Shown here: positions 13,329-62,573 of the stretch, one piece after another
Layout of the letters: every line of letters starts with the position of its first letter
How positions within the stretch are numbered: position 1 is the stretch's first letter
Assembly: GCA_003116975.1 (NCBI GenBank)
Contig: BGKB01000006.1
Location: forward strand, 62,001 to 126,000
Direction of reading: 5' to 3'
DNA length: 64,000 bases
Origin: Aurantiochytrium sp. KH105
Lineage: Eukaryota > Sar > Bigyra > Thraustochytrida > Thraustochytriidae
The notes under the pieces: model-generated
What the model was told of the DNA's origin: nothing
Database searches by the model: none
What the model saw: the letters and a program-made list of their open reading frames with translations, nothing else
Program-made: the position numbers and the translations under genes

Positions 13329-15518
13329 ATGTCGCGCACGAGGTATCACAAGGTGGACAACTTTGCCCACGAAGTCGAGGAAAAGCTTCTGGAGCAAGGG
13401 AAGCACGTGCGAAACTATGGAAGGTTGAATAGATGGTACATGGACGCGCTGGCGCGCGGCAAGCTCGAGGACGGAGATCCGCACGTTGTCTTGGACAGAC
13501 CTCGACCTTGGAGGCTGCAGAACTTCTTGCGCAACCTCGCGCCGCACGCATCGTATGGTGAAATCTCGCACCGAAACTACACGTTGCGCGTCATTAACGC
13601 TGGCATCGAGGATGCGCTGGGCCGAGGGAAATCAAGTGATCAGCTCGAAGAGCTCCTCTCACCTTGGAAACAAAATGAACATTCGTATTGGGAGAACTTT
13701 CAGTTCCACAAGGAGCTTATCGGCACGAGCCTCATCAACCTTTTGCCCGATCGCTCGTTCGCACTCTACGTCTATGCCAAGGACGCCGTCGGCGACGACG
13801 CACCTGTATTTTATATGGAGCTCGAGGTGGGACGGTCAATAGACCGCCACGTCATGGTCTGGGAGCTCGACCAAGTCATGGTGAAAAGCGCGACAGTTGC
13901 GCAGCCGCACGAGGCCTCCGAGGCCTCCGAGTACGCATCCGCGTACCAAAAGCTCTACTTTTACCTCAATTGGGAAGAAAAAAAGCCGCGCTACATTATT
14001 CGCGTCGTCGTGTCTGACCTTCCCAAGGTCGCTCACAAGTCTTGGGATGCCTGGCTCGGCGAGATGCACAAGAGTTCTCACGTTGACGCCTTTGTCGCCA
14101 TCTCGATTCTCATCCTTTCGTCATACTATGGCGTCTTTGGCGTTGGCAAGCCGTGGGTCGCCCAAGAGTGTGGCATTGGAGACTATCAAGGCAGTGGCGA
14201 AGGCGACAGCTCTAGTGTGGCTCTCATTGCTGGCATTGTGGTCGCCGGCATCGCCTCGGAGGAATGGCTTTCGCCATTTGCCATCATTCTAGGTGCCATA
14301 TCTCGGTTTTACGCGAACGAGTCCCTCACGCTGCGCGTCCACTATCGCGCCAGCATCTCGCTTTCTGTCAAGCGAGTCATCATTACGCTCTTGGCCACCG
14401 CATCCGAGCTCGGACCCTACGTTTCGAGCACGCTGGGAATTGACTACGCGTTCAGAGACCGGTACGCAGAGTTGAACGCGGGTCGCGACTCTTCCGAGAC
14501 CTACTTGGCGCCTATCTGCGGCTCGGACATGGTACTGATCATTGGCGCCATTTTCAACGTCATGGGTCTCATGCAGAGCGCGTACGCCGGCGTATACGAT
14601 GGCTTCAGTCACTCGGACTTTCCCGCAGTGCCCTCGATTCGCCCCGTGGTCTATGTGGCGAAGGAAGCGCAGCACTTTAAGCAGATCCTCGGCGACTGTC
14701 GTGCTGTGGAGGAGTATTGTTCAGTTTTCCGCCCCATTTTGCACTGGCAGCAAGGTGTGAACAAGCGATTCCTTGGCGACGCGATTGACCTGGCCGCGCC
14801 CGGCTCGCCGCCGAGCTTTCTCTCTTACTGTCTGGCGACGCCTGCGACAAGCCGTATCGCTGTACGTTATGCCGTTTATGGCGGCCTTTTCCGCTTTTGG
14901 CTTCTCCCGTTGGCATTTGTCGAGCAGATGCTTGCGGCATTCGGGGGCATTTTCATTCTTTTGCTCGATCTCCCTGTCGTGCTGGTGCTCACTTTTTCGC
15001 TCGGGCTCAAGACCTTGGGAATTCCACGTTCGGCGACGAAAGGGTTCAACACCTTTGCGCTCAAGTTGTACCTTCCTGCAGATTATGTGCTCGCCTTGCT
15101 CGAGGCGTACAATGAGCGCGTGGCAGATTGGCTCGATATGCAGACCATGGAGTGCCGTGGACGTTCGACCGCACGGCTCTACCGTCTCCCTCTCATTCAG
15201 GCTGTGCGCACGGGCCGCACCTCAAACCACGCGTGGAAGTTTGGAGACTATCTTCCCGATTCCAGCTACTATCGTTGTTCCGATATGGTTGTTGTAAATC
15301 CGCGCTCTTGCAAGCTTGCCATCATCAATGCTGGCAATCTCTTTTACAATCGTCACAAGCTGCTTTGGACTACCGTCGGCGGCACGCGATACGAGAATCC
15401 GTGTCTTGCGTGCGGAGACAATTCCGTCTCGCACCGCAGCTCGCTTGAAGGCCAGCAGGACCCGGAAGAGGCGCTTCACGTCTCGCAGACTCAGGTTAGT
15501 CCTAAGCTATCAATGTGA
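13329..15518 (+). CDS. Polytopic membrane protein of unknown function
   Basis: A 729-residue frame with a good ATG. I do not recognise the family. The first 240 residues are soluble and mixed, with YLNWEEKKPRYIIRVVVSDL before the first membrane segment. About six hydrophobic segments follow, around residues 253-275, 293-325, 340-360, 400-420, 515-545 and 545-565. The region after residue 570 is again polar and ends in a Ser/Gln-rich tail. A GTTAGT after CAGACTCAG at 15494 could be a splice donor that removes the last few codons, so the C-terminus is uncertain. Confidence 0.7.
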   Translation: MSRTRYHKVDNFAHEVEEKLLEQGKHVRNYGRLNRWYMDALARGKLEDGDPHVVLDRPRPWRLQNFLRNLAPHASYGEISHRNYTLRVINAGIEDALGRGKSSDQLEELLSPWKQNEHSYWENFQFHKELIGTSLINLLPDRSFALYVYAKDAVGDDAPVFYMELEVGRSIDRHVMVWELDQVMVKSATVAQPHEASEASEYASAYQKLYFYLNWEEKKPRYIIRVVVSDLPKVAHKSWDAWLGEMHKSSHVDAFVAISILILSSYYGVFGVGKPWVAQECGIGDYQGSGEGDSSSVALIAGIVVAGIASEEWLSPFAIILGAISRFYANESLTLRVHYRASISLSVKRVIITLLATASELGPYVSSTLGIDYAFRDRYAELNAGRDSSETYLAPICGSDMVLIIGAIFNVMGLMQSAYAGVYDGFSHSDFPAVPSIRPVVYVAKEAQHFKQILGDCRAVEEYCSVFRPILHWQQGVNKRFLGDAIDLAAPGSPPSFLSYCLATPATSRIAVRYAVYGGLFRFWLLPLAFVEQMLAAFGGIFILLLDLPVVLVLTFSLGLKTLGIPRSATKGFNTFALKLYLPADYVLALLEAYNERVADWLDMQTMECRGRSTARLYRLPLIQAVRTGRTSNHAWKFGDYLPDSSYYRCSDMVVVNPRSCKLAIINAGNLFYNRHKLLWTTVGGTRYENPCLACGDNSVSHRSSLEGQQDPEEALHVSQTQVSPKLSM

Positions 15519-16559
15519 TTGATTGACTGATTTGTTGATCACCAACTTGACATGGAACCATTATGGCAAGCGAAGGAAACCTTGTCGTTCCAAGAATGCT
15601 TTTTGACGACAACTTGTTCGGTTCCCCGTCTCGCTCGCTTGGTCTCTCTGCAAGTAGCCTGTTTCGTCATTCGCCAAACTCACCGTCAGTGCTCTGCTCT
15701 TGCACCTTCCTTTTCCTCCGCCCATCATCCTCCCTAACAAAGCGCACCCTCTCCTCTCCTGTCCTCTCCTGCTGTCCAAGCACCATCCATTCTTCCATCA
15801 ATCAGCTGCAGCCCTCATCGCATCCACCCTGATCACACGATTTCTGCCGCGGCCGCTGCCATTTCCATCCTCCCCGACCTCGTCCAGGCCGCCTCGAGCT
15901 AGCTTTCTTTCTCCAGCTCCAGCCCCGGCTCCAGCGCGAGACCTTCGAACGGACCTCCGCTGCTCTTCTGCTCCTTGCCCTGCGCTGCGCTGCTCTGTGC
16001 ACGCCGCGGCGCAACGGGTGTCAGCTGCAGCGGACGGCGTGCGTGCGGGAGTGCTGCTCGCGGCGAGGTGGTAGCAGCTGGCCGTGCCGCTGCCGCACTG
16101 CTGGTATCGAGACAGCGCTGGCGACGCGGGCAGCAGGGAGTTGCTGTTGGTCCGAGGCGGTGTGTCCAGGGAGCGATTGAAATGCGGTGACGGACCCGAG
16201 CCCGCGCCAAGTTGACCCCGCGCGACGACGCGAGACCCGGCGCGACGGCGGAGCCGCCCGCCAAGGCGGGGCCGCCCGCGAAGGCGGGGATGCGAGGCAG
16301 GTCGGCGGTGGCGGGGGAATCTGATGAGTTGACTTGAGTTGAGTTGAGTTGAGCTGAGCTGAGTGAGTTGAGTTGAGTTGAGATGTGCTAGAGGGTGAGG
16401 TGCACAACGCCAAAAGAGGAAGAGCTCGAGGCCTTCCTTTGCACAGACAGACCCCGAACCGACCCGAGCGGACCCGGCCCGACGCGCCGCGACGCAGCTC
16501 GAGGCGCGGCAGGCAGGCAGGCAGCGAGCGAGGCAGGGAGCGAGGGAGCGGGAGCGAGG
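15519..16559. other. Spacer with GAGTT repeats; ABHD-like promoter
   Basis: No gene recognised. Positions 16326-16381 hold an imperfect GAGTT/GAGCT pentamer array. Positions 16255-16290 hold GCCGCCCGC-AAGGCGGGG repeats. In-frame codons upstream of 16560 extend the hydrolase frame but lack an ATG-started, family-like sequence. Confidence 0.45.
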
Positions 16560-18380
16560 ATGGGGGTCGCGGAGCTCTCGAACGCCGCGCGCGAGGCCGT
16601 CTCGCGCAAGGACCTGCGCAAGGCGCTGCTCAAGTACGGGGTGCCGGCGGCGCTGCTGCTGGCCGCGGTGAGGACGTTTGCGCCGCGGCAGAGGGTCAGC
16701 ATCAAGAGCAAGGAGGAGGTCAGAGGCAGCGGCAAATACTTTGCCAGTCTGGCGCTCGCGCTCAAGAGCTCGACGCTGCGCAACATGCTTCTCAGCGCGC
16801 TGGGCGTCACCTACCTGTCCAACCGTCTCTTTGGCGTTCGCGCCAAACGAGCCTTTCCCAGCTTCTTTGCCACCATCTGGGGGCTCATCTACTTTTTCCA
16901 CGTCGCCGAAACGCCGCACGTCTGGTTCCGCCGCACGTACTACAACACCACTCTCGTGGAAAAGAGCAAAATCACCACCACCGAGTTCTGGCCCGTGTTC
17001 TGGCTCTTCAATCGACACGCCCAGACCGTCACCTGCTACGTCCTCTCTGCGCTAGAGTGGCTCTGGGCGCAGCCCATCGAGTACCGGCGGGAGACGCTGC
17101 CCTGCCACGACCCGCCCAACGAGCAGTACCTGGACTGGGCCTACTTTGGAGACGCCTCCTCCATCCTTCCCGGTGCCAAAGAGCACCATGGCCCAGAGGA
17201 CCCGCCCGAGGGCGAACCCGGCGAACCGAGTGGCGCCGCCCCGGGCCCCGCGCCAGGCTTTGGCCCCGAGCTCGGTGGCGCGGACGAAGATGATAATGCG
17301 CGTTCCACCTGGCAGACGCCCATTGTCCTCTGCATCCACGGACTCGGCGACAATAAGGACATCCCGTACATTAAGCGCTTCGCACGCGTGTGCTTGCGCA
17401 AGGGCTGGCGCGTTGTCGTCTGGAGTTACTGGCGCTTCATGTTCGAGGAGTCTCGCGACCTGAAAATCGTCATTGACCATTTGCACACCCAATGCCCACG
17501 CGCCCCCATCACGGCCGTCGCTTGGTCCGCGGGATCGTACTACCTGACCCGGTATCTTCAAAAGGCCGGCGCTGACAAGACGCCGCTAGTGAGTGCCATT
17601 TGCCAGAGTCCCTGCCTTGACTTTGTTCAAGCCGTCAATGATGTCACGGCCAATGAGAACACCACCTACCCTTTGTTTTTGCTCGGCCAGGCTCATACCT
17701 GTGTGCGCCGCCACGTCCGCAATGACAAGCGCATCAAGGACAAGGCTGCCTTTAACGACCTTCTCCTCGAACTCGATCCGATGATGCTTTTCAACCGCTT
17801 TTCAACCATGCTGCCCGAACCTATCCCGGACGACACTGGCTTTGGGCCTGCTGGCTTCACCACAGACACGGGCACGGTCATGGAGCGCGTGCAGAATGCT
17901 GCACATTATACAACGCGCAGCATCGACGAGATGCACAAGATCCAAGTCCCCACGCTCTTGCTTCATGCCGAGGACGACCCCGTCGTATCCTCGCTGCACG
18001 TGGACTGGGGCAAGCTCGAGTCGAACCGCAAAATCATTGTGGCCCACACGCGCCGGGGCGGCCATTGCGCATGGCATGAGGGGCTCATGCCCGTTGGGGA
18101 CACCTGGGGAGACAGGGTCACATCGAACTTTATCTCGGCCGTCATCGAGATGCACTCGCAGACGCACTTTCTCGTTGAACTGGTGCGAAACGCCATGGCC
18201 CTCGAGAACTTTTCTGCGCGTCCAGGCATGCGCCGTGCCCAGGGCTTTGATCCGCGGTCCATTACACGAATTACCTCGGCCAGCGACCTGGCCTCCATGG
18301 GCCAGGCGAGGCTCACTGTCGGCCACAATGGAGTCTTTGGAACGTCACGTCAGGACTCGAATCGCGAATGGGCCGAGTAG
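16560..18380 (+). CDS. Alpha/beta hydrolase, ABHD1/ABHD3 (YheT/EMB8) type
   Basis: A 606-residue protein. The N-terminal part has two or three hydrophobic segments and then NRHAQTV, the landmark just before the hydrolase fold in the ABHD1/2/3 and YheT family. An insert rich in Pro/Gly/Glu spans about residues 205-245. VLCIHGLGDNKD carries the oxyanion region. The nucleophile is likely Ser323 in AWSAG (the first Gly of the usual GxSxG is Ala). The acid is Asp472/473 in HAEDDPVV and the base His502 in RGGHCAWHEG. Members act on medium-chain esters or phospholipids; the substrate here is not evident. I start at 16560 because upstream in-frame codons look like GC-rich leader. Confidence 0.85.
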   Translation: MGVAELSNAAREAVSRKDLRKALLKYGVPAALLLAAVRTFAPRQRVSIKSKEEVRGSGKYFASLALALKSSTLRNMLLSALGVTYLSNRLFGVRAKRAFPSFFATIWGLIYFFHVAETPHVWFRRTYYNTTLVEKSKITTTEFWPVFWLFNRHAQTVTCYVLSALEWLWAQPIEYRRETLPCHDPPNEQYLDWAYFGDASSILPGAKEHHGPEDPPEGEPGEPSGAAPGPAPGFGPELGGADEDDNARSTWQTPIVLCIHGLGDNKDIPYIKRFARVCLRKGWRVVVWSYWRFMFEESRDLKIVIDHLHTQCPRAPITAVAWSAGSYYLTRYLQKAGADKTPLVSAICQSPCLDFVQAVNDVTANENTTYPLFLLGQAHTCVRRHVRNDKRIKDKAAFNDLLLELDPMMLFNRFSTMLPEPIPDDTGFGPAGFTTDTGTVMERVQNAAHYTTRSIDEMHKIQVPTLLLHAEDDPVVSSLHVDWGKLESNRKIIVAHTRRGGHCAWHEGLMPVGDTWGDRVTSNFISAVIEMHSQTHFLVELVRNAMALENFSARPGMRRAQGFDPRSITRITSASDLASMGQARLTVGHNGVFGTSRQDSNREWAE

Positions 18381-19651
18381 AAATGATGGGAGGCCTGCAG
18401 CAACCACCGCGTCGACGCTTTGAAGATCGTCGCGTTACGTTGCGCACGCTCTTCTCACTCGCCGCCCCTGCGAGCTTGCGCATCATGTGAGTGGTATAGC
18501 TAATCATGTAAAGGAAAATTGAGAACAGACATGCTACTTTTTCGCGCAGATGACATGTGTGCCTGTCGAGGAGAAGTCGATCAAGTTGTAATGATCAAGC
18601 AATCGACTTCCTCTGGTAAGGTTTGAACGGTTGAAGTTTGGGTGCAGGCAAGCTGCACCAATCTCTTCCCCTTCGTCGCACGCGCTACTTTCGACTTCCT
18701 TGATTTTCTACTGTCCTCTTTGCTCGCAAAACTCAAATTTCAGCACGACGCTTAGAATCAATGCACAACTGAATTAGGCTTATTACACGACCGGCTGCGA
18801 TAATCTTTTGAAAAAAGGAAAAGAGAGCGATCAAAGGGCTTTCCCCATGAAAGCTCGCATGCTTGACGGATTTTATACAACAAACACGTTGCAATTGCGC
18901 CGCGAGTAGCAAAAACCCATGTCAAGCAAAGGTGGTGAAGTAAATCTCTAGCTGCTTCGAAGTGAGCCAGATCTCAAGAAGAAATGTGTGAATAAGGGTA
19001 GAGCGAGACATGCGTGCCCCTTTTCACTCGTTTTCACCTATTTCCAGACAACATGCTCTTCGTTCATGTCAAGCGTGGGATTACTGTTTCGGTATCTCCA
19101 ACATCGCACGTCGGGTCGCTTGCGGTTCTGTTGGCCGCGTTGATGATCGTTGACGGATCGCAGGCTGCAAACTGCTCCAGACCAGGCCAGCCTGAGCCAG
19201 CCAGCGCGTGTGCACCGTCCGCGCGTGCCAGCGTGTGCACACGCTGGTCTTCTTCGCCCAAACACCTAATCCCCCTTTCGCCCCTCCGCGCAAGGCGCGA
19301 CCGCGCGGCAGGCAGGCAGGCAGGTGCGGCAGGCAGGCGCGCAAGCCAGCAAACCCCCTCCCTCTCTCCCCCCTCCTCGCGCGCGGGCGCCGCCGCGGCA
19401 CGCTCCGTCCGTCCGCGCGCGCCCCCCGGCGGAGAACGCGCCAAGGCCGCATTGCATCAGCAGCCAGCCCAGCCAGGCTCTTCCAGCCCGCCCTTCTTAT
19501 CCTCCCCTCGTCCGAGAGTCTTCGTCTCTCTCTCTGCTTTCTCGCCCCCTCTCCGCCGCACCCGCCCGCTCGCTCGCGCCGCTTCTTCGCGCCGCCCGCC
19601 CGCCCGCACGCACGCACGCACGCCCTCGCTCCCCTCGCCGCCATCGCCGCC
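18381..19651. other. Spacer upstream of WD40-Roc-COR-TIR gene
   Basis: No gene recognised. The left 600 nt are AT-richer. The right 400 nt are GC-rich, with pyrimidine stretches and a CGCA/CGCC repeat at 19595-19625 just before the ATG, and are the likely promoter and leader of the 19652 gene. Confidence 0.45.
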
Positions 19652-22600
19652 ATGGGCCGCATAGGCGCCGTGTTTGGCGTCGCGCAGTCCGCCGACCTCG
19701 TGCTGGCCGCCAGCTACGACGGCTGCGCCTTGCGAGCATGGAGCAAGAAGGACGGCGCCCTCGTCTTGGAGATGAAGACGCCCAACGACAAGGCGGCCAG
19801 GACAGTGGCCGTGCAGGGCAACCTCGCCGCCGTGGGGACTGACGCAGGCGGCCTCTTCCTGATCGACCTGGCCACCGCCTCCGTCCTGCACGCCCTCCAG
19901 GGCCACACCGGCCAAGTCAACAGCGTCATTTTCGACGGCAACGAGATCATCTCCAGCGGCGGGAGCAACGACCAGACCGTCCGCGTCTGGGACAAGATGA
20001 GCGGCCGAGAGACCTTGAGGATCGACGCCGGGTCGTGGGTCTGGAGCGTTGCCGCCCACGAGAACCTGCTCGTGGCCGGGTTGCAAGACCACACCGTGCG
20101 CGTCTTCGACCGGGCCAGCGGCGGCCCACGCCACGTCCTCACGGAGGCGACAGGCGAGGTCAACGCGGTCGCGATCGACGCGCAGCGCATGGTGAGCGGG
20201 TCCGACGACTACAAGGTGAGGGTCTACGCCGTGCCTTCCTTCCAGCTCGTCCGCGTCCTCGAAGGACACACCTGGTTTGTGCGCTCTGTCGCGCTCGAGG
20301 GAGACCGCATCGTGAGCGGGGCAAGCGACAAGACGGTCAGACTCTGGGACGCGCGCAGCGGAGACGCGCTGCACGTCTTGCAAGGACACTCGAACGATGT
20401 GATGTCGGTCTCTCTCTTGGGGTCGGAGGTCGTGAGCGGATCTGACGACCAGAGCGTGCGCATCTGGGATGCGGAGACGGGCGCCTCGACGCGCGTGCTG
20501 GACGGCACGGAGGCCGTGCGGCCCATCGAGGACGTGCTCGGCGGCCCCGCGACGACTGCGGCGGCGAAGGAGGCGCTCCAGGCGGCGCTGGCGAACGGGG
20601 ACCCCGCGGAGCTGGGCCGCTGCAAGCTCATGGTCGTCGGCCAGGGCGCCGCCGGCAAGACGTCCGTGGTGCGCTCGCTGCTGGGCATGCCGCCCGTGGC
20701 GGAGCACCTCTCCACGGTGGGCGTCGAGCTCAAGCGCACCGATGCAGAGTCGTGGCGGGAAGAGGAATTCGACAGCGGCTTTGAACGCCAGGCGTACCGC
20801 GTGGCGGCGCTGCGCATGGCCACGCAGGAGCAAGCAGCGAGCAAGAAGCGACAATCGCTGCCCAGGCGCGTGTCTCGCGGCCTTGCGGATGCCGTGCGTC
20901 GGCGTTCTTCTGCGGCGCGGCCCTTTGTCGCAGAGGTGCAGGTGGAGCTTGTGCCCGAAGCCGAGATGGCGCAGCGGTTCGAATATGCGGAGATCGAGGA
21001 CATGGCCGGCCAGACGCAGTCGGGCCAGAAGATCAAGTTTACCATCTGGGACTATGCAGGTCAGGACGTCTTTTAGGCGCTGCACCACATTTTCCTCACG
21101 CGCGAGGGCGGCGTCTTCATGCTCGTCTTTGACATGCAGGAACTCCTCACCGAGCAAAACAAAGCTTTGGGGTACCTGCGCTTTTGGCTCAACTCGATCA
21201 AGCTGCACGCGCCCAAAGCCCCTGTTCTTCTGGTCGCAACGCATTACGATCAAGCTTCCAACAGCCTGCAAACCGTTGAGAGAATTCTCCAGTCCCTTTT
21301 TCGTAAGCTGCGCGGAATCAAACTGGTAAAAAACAGTGGGACTCGCCTGAGTTTTTTCCCCATTGACAACATGAGTCCCGCAGCGAACCGCGCTGCCGAT
21401 CTGCGCGCTGCTGTGGAGAAAGCGGCATCCAGCCTTGAGGCTGTGTCGCAAAAGATCTCGCTGCGCTGGCTCAAGGTCGTGGATGATCTCATGAAACTGA
21501 ACTGCGACCACGTTCCCTTTGCCAAAGTGCAGGAATATGCGACCAAGTACCATGCTGGCGACCAGACAGACGAGCTGCTCAAGTTTTTCCACGAGCTTGG
21601 CATGCTTGTGCATCTGCGTGCCACCGATACGCTGCACGACAAGGTCGTGCTAAACCCACAGTGGCTTTTGGACAAGCTGGCCCGAGTCATTGCCGACGAG
21701 ATCCACGTCCAAGACATTTACTACGACGAGCGGCTTTCCGACCTCGAACTTGAGGACGACTTTGCGCTCCTGCGTCACAAGGGCATTGGTTCACGCGCCT
21801 TGCTCGGGTTCCTTTGGGACGATGAAGAAGTCGAGTACCTCGTGGAGTTCATGCGCGGCGCCATGCTACTGTCAAACTGGGATTTCCCGGAAGATGCTTT
21901 CACATCAGGCCGCCAAGGCGAGCCTCTCTATCTGGTGAGCAGTCTGCTCAAGAATTCGACCGACGCTGATCTTGTCGCAGAGATTGCGGACATGGACCCC
22001 GGTTTGACATGCGTTCTGGACTTTACCAAGTTTTTTCTTCCGGACGGCGTCTTTGCACGACTGCTTTCGCTTTGCGCTCAGTACAGTGGGAACTTTGGGG
22101 CCATCTCGCGTGCACCTCAGCTGGCAGCGAGCCAGGCCATTGTTCACTTCGGTCTCTCCGTCTTTGCGCTTGAGCAGACTCAGGACAAGATTTGGATTCG
22201 CGTGGAACGCGACTCCGAAAAGCCAGCAAACACGCTCAAGACGCTGGTGAGCATGTTTCGAAGCGCGCGTGACGCAGTCTTTCAAGATTTGCCATGGGAG
22301 CTTCTTCTTCAGTCGCCGAGAAATGCGTCCATTTTGGTCGCATACGACGAAGCTGCGCGGGCGTTCTCGTCCCCTGGAACCCAATCTGTCAACTCAGTGG
22401 GCACGAAAATCGTAAAGGTAGCAGACTTCGAGCCGTTTTTCAAAGATGGCTCGTTGACGGAGGATGAGAGAGACACGGGCGAGGTCGAAGAGGCAGATCT
22501 GCCGTTGGCTCCCGGCTTGAAGTATCACGTCTTTTTGAGCCACAAGCAGCTCGAGGCCGGTGACGCATGCAATCTCATGGCCGAGAAGCTCGTCAATCGC

Positions 22601-22954
22601 GGACTCAAGGTTTGGGTCGACCAGCGAACAGAGGGCAACCTCTCCCCGGAGAAGATGCGAGCTGGAATCCAGGCGTCAAAATGCTACTTGCTCTTTTTGA
22701 GCAAGACGGTCTTCAAATCCGAGATGGTCTGCATGGAGCTCGACACGGCCTTGCGAGCCGAAAAGCCCATTTTGCTTGTGCATGAGAGCGATCCCAATCG
22801 CGTGGGGTTCGCTGCGTTTCAGACGTACATTGACACAGTCCCCGCGTCGGCTGGGCATATTTTCGGTCTCAGCGAGTCTATGCCTTTTCAGCGTCGCTTG
22901 TATCTGACCGAAGGTTTCTACAATGAGCTCATCAGTCGCATTGATGCCAGCTAA
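19652..22954 (+). CDS. WD40-Roc-COR-TIR protein, interrupted by one in-frame TAG
   Basis: One frame of 1101 codons, broken only by TAG at 21074-21076 (codon 475). Residues 1-290 form about seven WD40 blades (VRVWD, VRVFD, VRLWD, VRIWD endings). The Roc GTPase has a P-loop GQGAAGKTS (330-338), a long variable insert (about 362-455), DYAGQ (467-471) and THYD (530-533, the G4 position). The COR region follows, with VVLNPQWLLDKLARVI. A TIR domain starts near residue 956 (YHVFLSHK...GLKVWVDQ) and keeps a Glu (E1029, in CMELDTAL) where TIR NADases carry their catalytic Glu. The stop falls between DVF and ALHHIFLTREGG, inside Roc. It could be a nonsense allele, a sequencing error or readthrough. TAG ends other genes here, so code reassignment is unlikely. 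Such sensor-switch-effector layouts suggest immune or cell-death signalling (inference). Confidence 0.82.
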
Positions 22955-23139
22955 ATTCTTGAAAAATGTTTTTGTAGTTTGTTCTCTTCGTATCACCTGG
23001 TCAGTAGATGCACGTTTTGCAACACAGCCAAGTCTTTATCGTCTGTTGTTAGCGGGCTTACCTCTCGTCACTCCCAGTGAGCTCGAAACCCCGCGACCCT
23101 TCGCCCGCAACGTGCCCTTCTTCGAGCTGGGCCGCGTGT

Positions 23140-25139
23140 AACAAGGGCCACTCGAACAAGGTGCTCTCTGTCGCGATCGAGGGAGACCGCATCGTGAGCC
23201 ACCAGGCAGGCGACAAGACGATCAAGGTCTGGGGCGCGCGGAGACGCCCGCTGCACATCTTGCGAGGCCACTCGAGCTAGGTGCAGGCGGTCTCCATTCG
23301 CACTTTGAGATGGTGCGTGTTTGTGACGTGGAGACGGGCGCGTGCTGGACGGCACAGAGGCTGCATGGCCCGTCGAGGAGGAAGTGCTCGGCGCCACCGC
23401 GACTACTGCGGCGGCAGAGGAGGCGCTCTGATCAACCTTGGTAATGTCGAAAATATCATTCGTGGGATGTTGCATGTTGACGAAAATGAAAACATCATCC
23501 CATACTCGGCAGCAAGCCTGAGCTTCTTTCCCATCGATAATATGAGTCGCGAACCGGGTCATGCCTCAAAGTTGAGAGCTGCGGTTGAAGTTAGCGCGTC
23601 GTCGCTCGAGTCTGTCTCACGAAAGATCTCGCTGCGCTGGCTCAAGGTGTTGGGCGACTTGCTCAAGCTTGACTGCGATCACATACCGTTCAAGACAGTG
23701 CAAGAGCTCGCAACCAAGTGTCACGCCGGTGATCAGACCGACGAGCTCTTGATCCTTTTTCATGAGCTCGACATGCTCGTTCATCTCCGCGCAACAGACA
23801 CCTTGTACGAAAGTGTCGTTCTGAACCCGCAGTGGCTCCTGGACAAGCTTTCGCGCGTGATTGCGGACGAGATCCATGTCAAGCAGATGCGATACGACCG
23901 TCATCTTCAGGATGCTGCTGTGATCAAGGACTTTACGGTGCTGCCAAGACGCAGTCTTGCGACGCTCCGCCTGCTGGCGTTTCTGTGGACCAATGAAGAG
24001 GTCGACCATCTGCTGGACTTGTTACGCGATACGATTCTGCTATCAAGCTGGATTCCTCCCGAGAAATCCCTCTCGAAGGTCAATCAAAACGAGCTGCTCC
24101 TAGCTAGTGAGCAGTTTGCTCAAGAACGCAATCAATGGTAGCTTAGAAGCCGAGATTACGGGCATGGACATTGGTCTGACATGCATACTAAATTTTTCCG
24201 AGTTCTTTCTCTCAGACGGTGTCTTTGCGCGTCTGCTCTCGCTCTGCGCCCAGTACAGCGGAGAGATGGGAGCTTTCGCGCGCGCGCCCCATTTGGCATG
24301 GAATCAAGCTGTCATTCACTTTGGTCTTTCCGCGTTTGCGCTTGAGCAGACACAGAATAAGATCTGGCTCCGCTTGGAGCGCGACTCCGAAAAGCTAGCC
24401 AGCACGCTCAAGACGCTGTTGAGCATATCCCAAGGCAATCGAGACGCGGTCTTTCGAGGTTTGCCATGTAAGCTCCTTCTTCAGGCGTCTGTTCTGGTTG
24501 CGTACCATGACGTCTGTTCTGGTTGCGTACGATGACGTGATTCAGGCGCGCACATCAGGGATTGACGCCGTCATGTCTGTGGGCACAAAGGTCGCCAAGG
24601 TCGCCGACTTTGTACCGTTTTCGAAGATGGCTCCCTCCCTGAAAGAAGACGAGGGAGATATCGTGGCGGTAGAGAGGATCGCTGTGCCTTTGGCGCCAGG
24701 TTTGACGTATCACCTTTTTCTGAGCCACCAGCAGACTGAGGCCGGCGGTGCATGCAATCTCGTGGCTAAAGAGTTCATGAATTGCGGACACAAGGTTTGA
24801 GTTGACCAGCAAACGGAAGGTAATCTCTCAACGAAAGAGATGCCCGATGTAATCCGTGCGTCAAAATGTCACCTTCTTTCTCTGGCAAAGTTTGTCTTTA
24901 GTTCCGAACCAGCTTTCATGTAGCTGAACACGACCCTGCAAGCCAAGAAGCCTATCTTGCTCGTGCATGAGAGCGACTCAAGTCGCGTGGGGTTTGCAAA
25001 CTTCTCCACTTGTATTTACACGGTTCCAGATTCGGCCAAGCACATTTTCGACCACAGGGGGTCGATGCCTTATCAGCGTCGTTTGTACTTGGCTGAAGGA
25101 TTTTACAAGGAGCTCTTTCATCGCATTGATGCCAGCTAA
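23140..25139 (+). pseudogene. Decayed tandem copy of the WD40-Roc-COR-TIR gene
   Basis: It starts inside a WD40 blade (GHSNKVLSVAIEGDRIVS) 185 nt after the first gene ends, so the N-terminal blades are missing. TAG at 23278-23280 replaces an Asp codon. The Roc P-loop, DxxGQ and G4 regions are deleted: homology jumps from the end of the WD40 part (TTAAAEEAL) to SFFPIDNMS. COR then runs to about 24105, where a one-base shift occurs; a further frame change follows near 24500. In the TIR part, TGA at 24798-24800 replaces the Trp codon of the KVWVDQ motif, and TAG at 24921-24923 replaces the Glu codon equivalent to E1029. The final codons before TAA (RIDAS) are intact. It is not expected to make a functional protein. 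Confidence 0.93.
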
Positions 25140-25416: not shown

Positions 25417-26508
25417 TCAGATGAGGTCGATGGGACGCTGCTGGTTCAACCAGGGCTCGGGCTTGTTGCCTAGAATTTCGTCAATCTTATCCATGTGGTC
25501 GTCCGTCATCTTGAGCAGAACCGGGAGCGCACCAAGGTTCTCCTCGAGCTGCTCCGTTTTGGTCGCACCGAGAAGGACCGTGGTGACGTTCTTGTTCTTG
25601 AGGCACCACGCCAGCGCGAGTTGCGAGGTAGAGCACTGAAACTCCTTTTCTGCAAAGTCGGCAAGCTTTTGCACCTTGTCGAGGCTGCCGTCCTCCTTCC
25701 AGGCGTCGAGCTTCTTGACCAGCCACTCGTAGCCCTTTTGGGCGAGGCGCGAGTCTTCAGGGATCCCGTCCTTGTACTTGCCGGTGAGGAGGCCCGAGGC
25801 GAGCGGGCTCCAAATGGTGGTGCCAATGTTGTAGGGCTGGCGGTAGAGCGGAAAGTACTCCTTCTCGAAGCGCTCGCGGTGCATCATGTTGTACTGGGGC
25901 TGCTCAAAGGCCGGGGCGATCATGCCGCCGCGCTGTGCGATAAAGTAGGCCTCGGTTATCTGCTGGGCGCTCCACTCGCTGGTGCCCCAGGCGGTGGCCT
26001 TGCCGGAGCGCACGAGGTCCGTCATGGCCTGCACGACCGTCTCCGTGGGCGTGTGGGCGTCGGGGCGATGGCAAAAGACGAGGTCAACGTAGTCGAGCTG
26101 CAGACGCTTGAGTGAGGCGTCGATGCCCTCGTTGATGTGCTTGCGCGAGAGGCCCTTTTCGTTGACGGTGCCTTCGTCGCCCTGCGCGCACCAAAAGAGC
26201 TTGGTGGTGATGACGAGCGCGGACCGGCGCCAGAGCTGCGCGTCCTCCTGGCGGAGCTGCGCGAGCGCCTCGCCCATGATGCGCTCCGCCTCGCCCGAGG
26301 GGTTTCCGTACACCTCGGCGTTGTCGAAGCAGTTCACGCCGGCCTTGCGCGCGAGCCGCAGGCAGTCCTTGGCCATGTTGATGCCGTCCTGCTCGCGCAG
26401 CGTATCCTTGACGCCAAAGGTGGCCCAAAACCCGTAGCTCAGCACGGACACCGCCAGGCCCGTGTTGCCCAGCATCCTGTAGTACATCTTCGGCGCCTCG
26501 GCCGCCAT
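25417..26508 (-). CDS. Aldo-keto reductase, Kv channel beta-subunit (AKR6) type
   Basis: A 363-residue NADPH-dependent oxidoreductase resembling KCNAB and plant/yeast AKR6-type proteins. The TIM-barrel motifs run in order: RMLGNTGLAVSVLSYG, NCFDNAEVYG with D62 and Y67, TTKLFW with K103, and VFCHRPD with H147. Animal Kv-beta has Asn at that last site, so this protein keeps a full D/Y/K/H tetrad. Later come WGTSEWSAQQI, TTIWSPLASGLLTGKY and TVLLGATKTEQLEENLGAL, all typical of the family. It may be a free reductase rather than a channel subunit; no channel gene is nearby. Its 3' end faces the TIR pseudogene. Confidence 0.92.
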   Translation of the reverse strand: MAAEAPKMYYRMLGNTGLAVSVLSYGFWATFGVKDTLREQDGINMAKDCLRLARKAGVNCFDNAEVYGNPSGEAERIMGEALAQLRQEDAQLWRRSALVITTKLFWCAQGDEGTVNEKGLSRKHINEGIDASLKRLQLDYVDLVFCHRPDAHTPTETVVQAMTDLVRSGKATAWGTSEWSAQQITEAYFIAQRGGMIAPAFEQPQYNMMHRERFEKEYFPLYRQPYNIGTTIWSPLASGLLTGKYKDGIPEDSRLAQKGYEWLVKKLDAWKEDGSLDKVQKLADFAEKEFQCSTSQLALAWCLKNKNVTTVLLGATKTEQLEENLGALPVLLKMTDDHMDKIDEILGNKPEPWLNQQRPIDLI

Positions 26509-61850: not shown

Positions 61851-62573
61851 TCATTTCGCACCAGGTGGCACGTCGTGGAGGCCGCAGACGAGGTTCGCGG
61901 GGAGCGAAACGTCAATCTTGGCCGGATACGGGAGGCCGAGGTTGTCCATAAGATCGACAAACTCGTCGAGCGACTTGGTAAGACGCGGGTTGTACTGCTT
62001 CTCCTCGGCGACAGTGCTCATCGTGCGGCCCTTGTAGTCGTGTGCTGGGTAGATAATGGTATCATCGGGCAAGGTAAAGATCTTCTCGTGGACGTTCTTG
62101 TAGAGCGACTTGGAGTTGCCCTGCTGAAAATCCGTGCGGCCGCAGCCGCGCACGAGGAGCGTGTCGCCCGTAAAAACCATGGTGGTGGGTCCGTCGCGGA
62201 CAACGAGCGAGTGGCATCCGTTGGTGTGGCCCGGGGTGGAGAGGAACTCAATCTTGATGGTCTCGCCGACCTCGAGCACATCTCCCTCGGAGAGACGAAT
62301 GTCCGCCATGGCCTCCTCGTTGCCCTCTTCGCCGAGGACGCTCTTGACCTCGGGCAGGATCTTCTTGATGGCCTTGTTGCCAAAGATATGGTCCGCGTGC
62401 ACGTGCGTGTTGACTGCGTACTTGAGATCGAGGTTGAGCTCGTCGAGCATCTGCACGTCGCGCTCCACGAGCTCCAGCACCGGGTCGATCAGCGCCGCCT
62501 CGCGCGTCTTCTCGCACCCGAGCACGTACGTGTACGTGCACGACTCGCGGTCGAACAGCTGCCGAAAGATCAT
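61851..62573 (-). CDS. ETHE1: ETHE1 persulfide dioxygenase
   Basis: 240 residues. Metallo-beta-lactamase fold enzyme that oxidises glutathione persulfide to sulfite in mitochondrial sulfide detoxification, using a single Fe. It matches ETHE1 along its length: IFRQLFDRESCTYTYVLG, EAALIDPVLELVERD, VNTHVHADH (metal ligands), STPGHTNGC, FTGDTLLVRGCGRTDFQQG, VHEKIFTLPDDTIIYPAHDY and NPRLTKSLDEFV. The GCGRTDFQ signature separates ETHE1 from glyoxalase II. No mitochondrial presequence precedes MIFRQLF. A CAACAG just upstream of the ATG could be a splice acceptor, so a targeting exon may be missing from this model. Confidence 0.96.
   Translation of the reverse strand: MIFRQLFDRESCTYTYVLGCEKTREAALIDPVLELVERDVQMLDELNLDLKYAVNTHVHADHIFGNKAIKKILPEVKSVLGEEGNEEAMADIRLSEGDVLEVGETIKIEFLSTPGHTNGCHSLVVRDGPTTMVFTGDTLLVRGCGRTDFQQGNSKSLYKNVHEKIFTLPDDTIIYPAHDYKGRTMSTVAEEKQYNPRLTKSLDEFVDLMDNLGLPYPAKIDVSLPANLVCGLHDVPPGAK

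Follow-up and report, generated by a model that had tools for sequence, protein, structure and literature searches.

The 64,000-nucleotide window analysed here, the whole stretch of Aurantiochytrium sp. KH105 DNA from position 62,001 to 126,000 of contig C6 (G000:C6:62001-126000), carries on its forward strand, at 19652..22954, a gene (hereafter the window copy) encoding a WD40 propeller, a Roc GTPase, a COR region and a TIR domain. Judging from its sequence and that of its relatives in the same assembly (76 Mb, 367 contigs), it probably represents one of the alleles at a single locus within a large family of non-self receptors with long uninterrupted frames, which would resemble nucleotide-binding leucine-rich repeat receptors (NLRs) and would be built on a ROCO switch. 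The evidence consists of the domain architecture, the expansion of the family, hypervariable positions in the propeller, a contrast in selection along the protein, mosaicism between loci and, in the window copy, a premature stop codon.

Pfam places the four domains in the order WD40, Roc, COR-A and TIR_2 in a single reading frame (19652-22954) that has no visible introns, runs to a terminal stop and begins at a start codon within GCCGCCATGG, in a strong start context. The WD40 propeller (residues 1-285, 19652..20506, +; PF00400, E 3.1e-30) is also matched by many beta-propeller models and by WD40 structures in PDB, and its alignment register gives seven blades, blades 1-2 being less clear. It is followed on the same strand by the Roc P-loop GQGAAGKT (residues 330-337, 20639..20662), the G3 motif DYAGQ (residues 467-471, 21050..21064) and the G4-type motif THYD (residues 530-533, 21239..21250), by a COR-A match (PF16095, 3.3e-12; residues 605-686, 21464..21709) and by a TIR_2 match (PF13676, 1.5e-11; residues 960-1061, 22529..22834). 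The Pfam match to Roc is 9.7e-9 upstream of an in-frame TAG (see below), and the portion downstream of it reaches merely 0.018, under the cut-off. PDB sequence matches to the bacterial Roco structures 4wnr and 3dpu and to LRRK2 back the Roc-COR part, and matches to chains 7uwg and 8g83 of the TIR NADase AbTIR (E 4e-4 and 8e-4) back the TIR. Roc passes directly into COR, as is characteristic of ROCO proteins, and NACHT was not among the matches listed for the N-terminal half (25 of 51 families), the switch matching Roc instead. The domain matches lie far above chance level, and many relatives within the assembly have the same order; DYAGQ is present in 23/23 copies, GQGAAGKT in 22/23 (L034 has GAASK, with Ser for one Gly) and THYD in 22/23 (L049 has THFD). 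The original prediction, made from the letters of the DNA, had thus named the right domains in the right order, and the P-loop, DxxGQ and THYD motifs are all found in the window copy.

Its further claim that the domains are fused in one frame does not hold for this copy: translation and the family alignment reveal a TAG at codon 475 (21074..21076, +), four residues past DYAGQ, so that the frame is not open and Roc is cut. Codon 475 is open in the 22 other aligned copies and TAG is the natural terminal stop of 3/23 family genes, which rules out a reassignment of TAG in the genetic code and shows that the stop is a loss in the window copy. An allele with an open frame of 1103 residues (L010) lies on the sister contig C15, which aligns with a 6.2 kb stretch surrounding the gene at 92% and, with the order kept, with 7.6 kb of adjacent DNA at 93%. 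The reading of the C15 copy as a mere paralogue was rejected, given that the flanks and this adjacent DNA align at 92-94%. Since many matches come as near-identical pairs on two contigs, the assembly was taken as diploid. From the sequence, inactivation by the Roc stop looks recent, because the rest of the frame keeps the same low ratio of nonsynonymous to synonymous divergence (dN/dS) against the allele. We consider it improbable that readthrough of the TAG, or a base-calling error at it, leaves the window gene functional: the frame is otherwise intact, its post-stop half is 98% identical to the allele and just one codon is hit, but TAG ends those three family members and other copies have inactivating stops too (two TAG in C67 and one, at codon 83, in L055).

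The post-stop half has 72 matches in the assembly, of which 54 extend over its full length at >=64% identity, and 47 of these 54 copies lie in frames that reach >=1,030 aa; of the 47, C9, C14 and C115 at the least are broken further upstream. Six further full-length ROCO-TIR matches at 42-45% identity (C42, C66, C17:617256, C184, C85 and C84:952) may perhaps represent a second subfamily. Residues 1-474 have 93 matches, WD40-only genes among them. The full-gene set analysed below consists of 23 of the 54 copies; 30 were cut from their loci and eight broken or partial ones (L012, L019, L020, L028, L039, L045, L046 and L050) were dropped. Beyond the assembly, pattern searches that reach near relatives only, and are therefore weak, gave 59 and 26 matches to the COR-TIR half in genome and viral contig collections and 34 matches to the WD40 part in the viral contig collection, zero of which were confirmed. 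Among the papers listed from the open-access literature, judged by titles and the beginnings of abstracts, none described a WD40-ROCO-TIR repertoire, and nothing was found there on a thraustochytrid TIR domain.

Variation in the propeller was followed in 51 WD40 cassettes, 6 WD40-only genes included, and in a 24-member core of cassettes chosen by eye for framework similarity. By entropy and divergence it is concentrated at 28 codons (19667..20452, +), here called hot, which encode residues 6, 8, 22, 25, 50, 52, 64, 65, 88, 90, 106, 108, 129, 131, 145, 147, 169, 171, 185, 187, 209, 211, 225, 227, 249, 251, 265 and 267; residue 52 is hardly variable and was left out of some tests, and 108 was left out of one. 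In blades 3-7 the variable sites flank a conserved strand-a residue and a residue of the b-c turn, the register in blades 1-2 being less clear. The 28 sites were picked after viewing the alignment, which makes an enrichment P value on them circular, and we therefore give a register test with positions taken from the literature, although the register was placed by us. In the available parts of the sources on the fungal HET-D/E repeats, the diversified codons are numbered 7, 9, 25 and 27, or 10, 11, 12, 14, 30, 32 and 39 in later numbering (PMC1805685, PMC2873952, PMC12222747), and homology models put the four codons of the older numbering on the propeller's top face (PMC1805685, PMC2873952). 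At these seven positions per repeat, mean entropy in blades 3-7 of 43 cassettes was 2.13 vs 0.39 bits elsewhere (35 literature-mapped vs 165 other sites, Mann-Whitney 5e-13). Positions 12, 14, 30 and 32, which we equated by register with the older codons 7, 9, 25 and 27, were hypervariable in 5/5 blades tested (entropy 2.05-3.55) and position 11 in 4/5; positions 10 and 39 were not.

Over all pairs, the proportions of nonsynonymous and synonymous differences (pN and pS) were 0.568 and 0.347 in hot codons compared with 0.094 and 0.168 in the remaining WD40 codons. Among 129 close pairs, selected by framework divergence <4% and hot divergence >50% and hence picked for hot divergence, most hot codons differed at 0.3-0.7 per nucleotide (0.13 at codon 108 and 0.04 at 52), and the Val codon standing between two hot codons had a change rate of 0.000 in 5/6 blades. 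Hypermutation of whole segments was rejected, as fourfold-degenerate diversity rises just moderately around hot codons, to 0.14-0.18 within five codons of them vs 0.118 further away. The framework is specific to each blade: over the 25 residues outside hot codons, identity between blades 3-7 within the window gene is 0.36-0.64 (mean 0.46), compared with 0.92 for the same blade across core cassettes. At codon 88 (19913-19915) and its homologues the third base is T in 46/50 cassettes, with the first two bases widely variable; elsewhere in WD40, T is rare at third positions.

Selection differs along the protein. Median all-pairs dN/dS in the 23 genes (253 pairs; saturation of dS lowered this number in places, to 171 for TIR) was 0.89 for WD40, 0.36 for linker/Roc-N, 0.17 for Roc-C, 0.16 for COR and 0.12 for TIR; WD40 dN/dS was >1 in 108/253 pairs, and median dS climbed along the protein from 0.165 to 1.73. 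Between the window copy and its allele, the values were 1.67, 0.27, 0.14, 0.06 and 0.14 in the same order. COR and TIR are under purifying selection, and their dN/dS of 0.12-0.16 speaks against the reading that this is a non-immune ROCO signalling family with WD40 diversity that arose by neutral decay of duplicated copies. Some copies are indeed pseudogenes, the window copy included, but the framework is conserved down to silent sites while mainly the interaction codons vary, and this reading, already disfavoured, is in our judgement very improbable.

The two ends of the protein also differ in descent. WD40 framework distance correlated with the distance of Roc-N at a Mantel r of 0.80, with those of COR1, COR2 and TIR at 0.21, 0.01 and 0.13 (20 genes), and for the most part the history of the sensor half is separate from that of the effector half. 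Single relatives are patchworks in their identity to the window gene, L011 having 92% in COR and 68% in TIR and L013 76% and 96%, and in 60-codon windows the allele itself ranked 8th-11th of 22 in framework identity in 7/8 windows up to codon 340, and first or second from codon 361 onward. In the 23 genes, GC at fourfold sites is 0.87-0.92 in the WD40 framework and P-loop region and falls to 0.62 in TIR, which suggests that the 5' half undergoes biased gene conversion or that GC simply declines from 5' to 3'.

Comparison of the window copy with its allele exposes a puzzle at silent sites. The two differ at 24/28 hot residues and at 47/81 hot-codon nucleotides vs 9/690 nucleotides of the strict framework (which omits 27 further variable codons, e.g. 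23, 48, 105, 208 and 248), yet at 0/149 fourfold sites in non-hot WD40 codons vs 28/416 in the rest of the gene; fourfold counts use all 257 non-hot codons and agree with the strict framework, and all-codon pS is 0.054 because multi-change codons at the extra variable sites count there. Nine core pairs likewise had 0 fourfold differences of 148-153, yet 20-25/28 hot residues differed, and 75/276 core pairs combined <=2 fourfold differences with 16-27 hot ones; three pairs with unchanged hot sites had 10-13 fourfold differences of about 150. The 1275 pairs of the 51 cassettes fall into two classes, with 0-3/28 hot differences in 8 pairs, which by their sequence look allelic, >=54% in 1267 and zero between. 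Linkage between hot codons 6 nucleotides apart was absent in the core (0.199 vs 0.204 shuffled), and 25 cassettes of all kinds showed a slight non-significant excess (z 1.3). From the unchanged 149 fourfold sites, the missing intermediate pairs and the unlinked hot codons, we conclude that the shared framework spread recently among core cassettes and that the hot codons were renewed alongside or right after; we read the diversification as proceeding in bursts, by selection and concerted evolution or by a codon-targeted process.

The changes also separate haplotypes. At three loci on the C6/C15 contig pair, that of the window copy among them, 24, 22 and 25 hot residues differ between haplotypes, the flanks of the two further loci having been checked on both sides for one and on one side for the other, and 23 and 25 hot residues differ in two additional pairs that were matched solely through contig coordinates; allelism beyond window/L010, L051/L052 and L055/L056 (L055 itself being a broken copy) is based on contig pairing and similarity, not flanks. 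Such differences speak for receptors of allorecognition between conspecific cells rather than of pathogen defence, and the hot sites are the same as in the fungal allorecognition genes. On the other hand, eight other pairs keep their hot sites, a diploid with two specificities at several loci would need tolerance, and the size of the family is equally compatible with pathogen recognition, which leaves allorecognition, to our mind, a rather unlikely account of the family.

How the hot codons change can be explained in two ways, which we weighed separately since the weights given to rival explanations in this study are not mutually exclusive. Ordinary mutation under very strong diversifying or balancing selection at the interaction sites, with gene conversion driving the concerted evolution of the framework, has about an even chance of being correct; this model has been proposed for the fungal NWD genes, and the variable positions here are the same as in Podospora (available parts of PMC1805685, PMC2873952). 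The high fourfold GC of WD40 (0.87) relative to TIR is expected under frequent conversion, framework and hot distances correlate (r 0.53, 20 genes), genes are mosaic, and shared runs of >=3 hot codons are in excess (40 pairs vs 24.6 shuffled; variance of sharing 4.5 vs 3.35). Gradual selection, however, predicts intermediate pairs, and blind conversion of tracts predicts linked hot codons. Hot change was not gradual, as the eight hot-keeping allele pairs show almost none of it, and linkage at 6 nucleotides is lacking in the core. Moreover, strict-framework pS has a median of 0.022 among core paralogues, below the 0.023-0.090 of the eight hot-keeping allele pairs (6/8 >0.05), although the hot sites are saturated in the former.

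The same figures make an active, codon-targeted renewal a tentative possibility, a minority view but one to be taken seriously: the framework would be copied from a shared source, between loci and between haplotypes, while ~28 predetermined codons of the binding face are rewritten together in bursts, comparable to the action of diversity-generating retroelements (DGRs) in bacteria but by a different chemistry. The window copy and its allele, the nine core pairs and the wider 75 with nearly fixed silent sites, the bimodal hot differences and the want of 6-nucleotide linkage, which is contrary to tract-wise gene conversion, all fit such renewal, as does the higher third-base change inside fourfold hot codons (0.094 within the same codon box and 0.329 between different boxes vs 0.027 in the strict framework). 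Against it, framework pS is very low in merely 2/5 allele pairs with changed hot sites (0.011 and 0.017, the others having 0.057, 0.062 and 0.100); hot codons keep the C/G-ending usage of the family (third-position GC 0.855), unlike fresh random codons, and at some hot sites the third base is inherited; the excess of shared runs hints at some exchange of tracts; and the hot codons of the 51 cassettes and of 8 further loci were free of stops, one TAA occurring in the latter at codon 27 beside an alignment gap. A template copy was not found either, the best other cassette among 40 scored reaching 93%. Mutagenesis by DGRs is adenine-specific, and a process of this kind was rejected here because the variation at many hot codons departs from states rich in T, G or C, as judged without ancestral reconstruction. 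The question raised is whether selection and conversion alone can change most of 28 codons while 149 nearby silent sites stay fixed, the alternative being a eukaryote that possesses targeted receptor mutagenesis; if this were true, a unicellular eukaryote would have machinery that diversifies receptors in its germline and supplies a ROCO-TIR system of immunity or allorecognition.

For the effector, the original prediction pointed to a Glu at the position expected for TIR NADase activity and proposed alignment with known NADases, among which SARM1 and plant TIRs are also counted. Glu1029 (22736..22738, +) does align with Glu208 of the bacterial NADase AbTIR (AbTIR residue numbers follow our own count along the alignment) and is invariant in 23/23 copies, and the residues that correspond to AbTIR S140 and D167 are equally invariant. 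A Glu occupies the same place in non-catalytic Toll-like receptor TIRs as well, and Glu1029 is therefore no proof of activity. The Trp of the WxxxE motif, four residues upstream, is replaced by Met, Ala or Ser in 23/23 copies, and the equivalent of AbTIR R151 is Asn, so that the case for an NADase is weaker than had been stated. According to the available part of PMC11374754, this Trp is required in AbTIR, not in TcpC, and is strongly conserved in TIRs that make cyclic ADP-ribose (cADPR). Since it is missing and R151 is replaced, a cADPR-type product looks less likely for these proteins.

Taken together, the family points to an NLR-like repertoire on a ROCO switch, with a WD40 sensor and a TIR effector, in a single-celled eukaryote. 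The propeller would be the recognition domain, two residue pairs per blade making up its hypervariable surface for binding; a bound ligand would switch Roc between GTP and GDP, the COR region would then dimerise or reorganise, and the C-terminal TIRs thus brought together would cleave NAD+ or a related nucleotide, or nucleate signalling, an output that would limit infection or kill the cell. New specificities would come from renewal of WD40 cassettes, while the end of Roc, COR and TIR are conserved and recombined between loci. Several observations weigh against this interpretation: barring stop readthrough or an assembly error, the window copy cannot yield the full protein; the WxxxE Trp is absent; recombination and saturation distort pairwise dN/dS; and WD40 dN/dS is just 0.39, 0.16 and 0.06 in three further putative allele pairs, so that diversification is not acting at every locus now. 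The earlier proposal of a sensor-switch-effector protein for immunity or cell death therefore fits the family, with its expansion, diversifying selection confined to WD40 interaction sites and mosaicism of sensor and effector, better than the window copy, truncated as it is in Roc.

Other features of the locus and the assembly were recorded alongside. By tblastn, open reading frames and synteny, an older decayed tandem copy with stops and frameshifts extends from the WD40 end to TIR at 23110..25139 (+); it is common to both haplotypes, with some stops identical. An antisense open frame of 726 aa over the WD40-Roc part (19457-21637, -) probably owes its existence to high GC content and codon bias. 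The neighbours of the window copy are an alpha/beta hydrolase (16395-18380, +), an aldo/keto reductase (25417-26508, -) and a 729-aa frame without a Pfam match (13329-15518, +). WD40-only genes related to the ROCO sensors (L081-L086, C6:241310-244535 and C15:583998-587251), some of them in tandem on both contigs of a pair, could possibly be sensors, decoys or donors. TIR_2 has at least 150 matches in the assembly (258 candidates; e.g. C16:579190, C8:194982 and C51:47683, beyond the window); the frames holding them range from 173 to 2016 aa and many do not belong to the ROCO family, which amounts to a very large TIR repertoire. On C72 and C155, a frame matches residues 6-1035 of the polyunsaturated fatty acid synthase model PfaA at 930 bits, below the cut-off of 1010; 11/14 control genomes also match this model, none over the cut-off, and a divergent ketosynthase frame lies near the C72/C155 frame, a combination that would point to a thraustochytrid.

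Among known systems, AbTIR shares with this family a TIR recognisable by sequence, the catalytic-type Glu and the S140 and D167 equivalents, and differs in having the WxxxE Trp and R151. Bacterial conflict-system sensors diversified by DGRs, some of them with TIR, likewise show targeted codon variation in NTPase-effector immune sensors, but theirs is template-directed and falls in a C-type lectin (available part of PMC10907252), whereas for the codons here neither a template nor adenine specificity was found. The TPR-ROCO-TIR protein of Chondrus crispus also joins Roc-COR and TIR in one protein, but with a tetratricopeptide repeat (TPR) sensor, and the available part of PMC11378527 describes no repertoire for it. 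For diatoms, oomycetes and Schizochytrium aggregatum, the same part of that source gives <=4 ROCO copies in each species; it presents the brown algal LRR-ROCO proteins as candidate immune receptors of an expanded ROCO family whose repeat domain is under diversifying selection on its predicted ligand face. These have a leucine-rich repeat (LRR) sensor, 7-55 exons and exon shuffling (PMC11378527), unlike the WD40, TIR and uninterrupted frame found here.

The fungal NWD/HNWD receptors (HET-D, HET-E and HET-R of Podospora anserina) are, as far as the available parts of the sources extend, alike in their hypervariable WD40 codons at strand a and the b-c turn, in diversifying selection at those codons and in a framework homogenised across the family. 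Their switch is NACHT, however, where the switch here matches Roc-COR, and their effector an N-terminal HET domain instead of a C-terminal TIR; their repeats, by the same sources, are near-identical, in tandem and variable in number, a degree of internal conservation not found in the seven blades with blade-specific frameworks described above (0.46 within the gene, 0.92 for the same blade across the core). By analogy, the family may work in the manner of the fungal NWD and brown algal LRR-ROCO receptors, while its architecture places it in neither group, and because its variable positions coincide with those of the fungal allorecognition receptors, two unrelated types of switch have apparently come to use the same residues of the propeller for recognising non-self.

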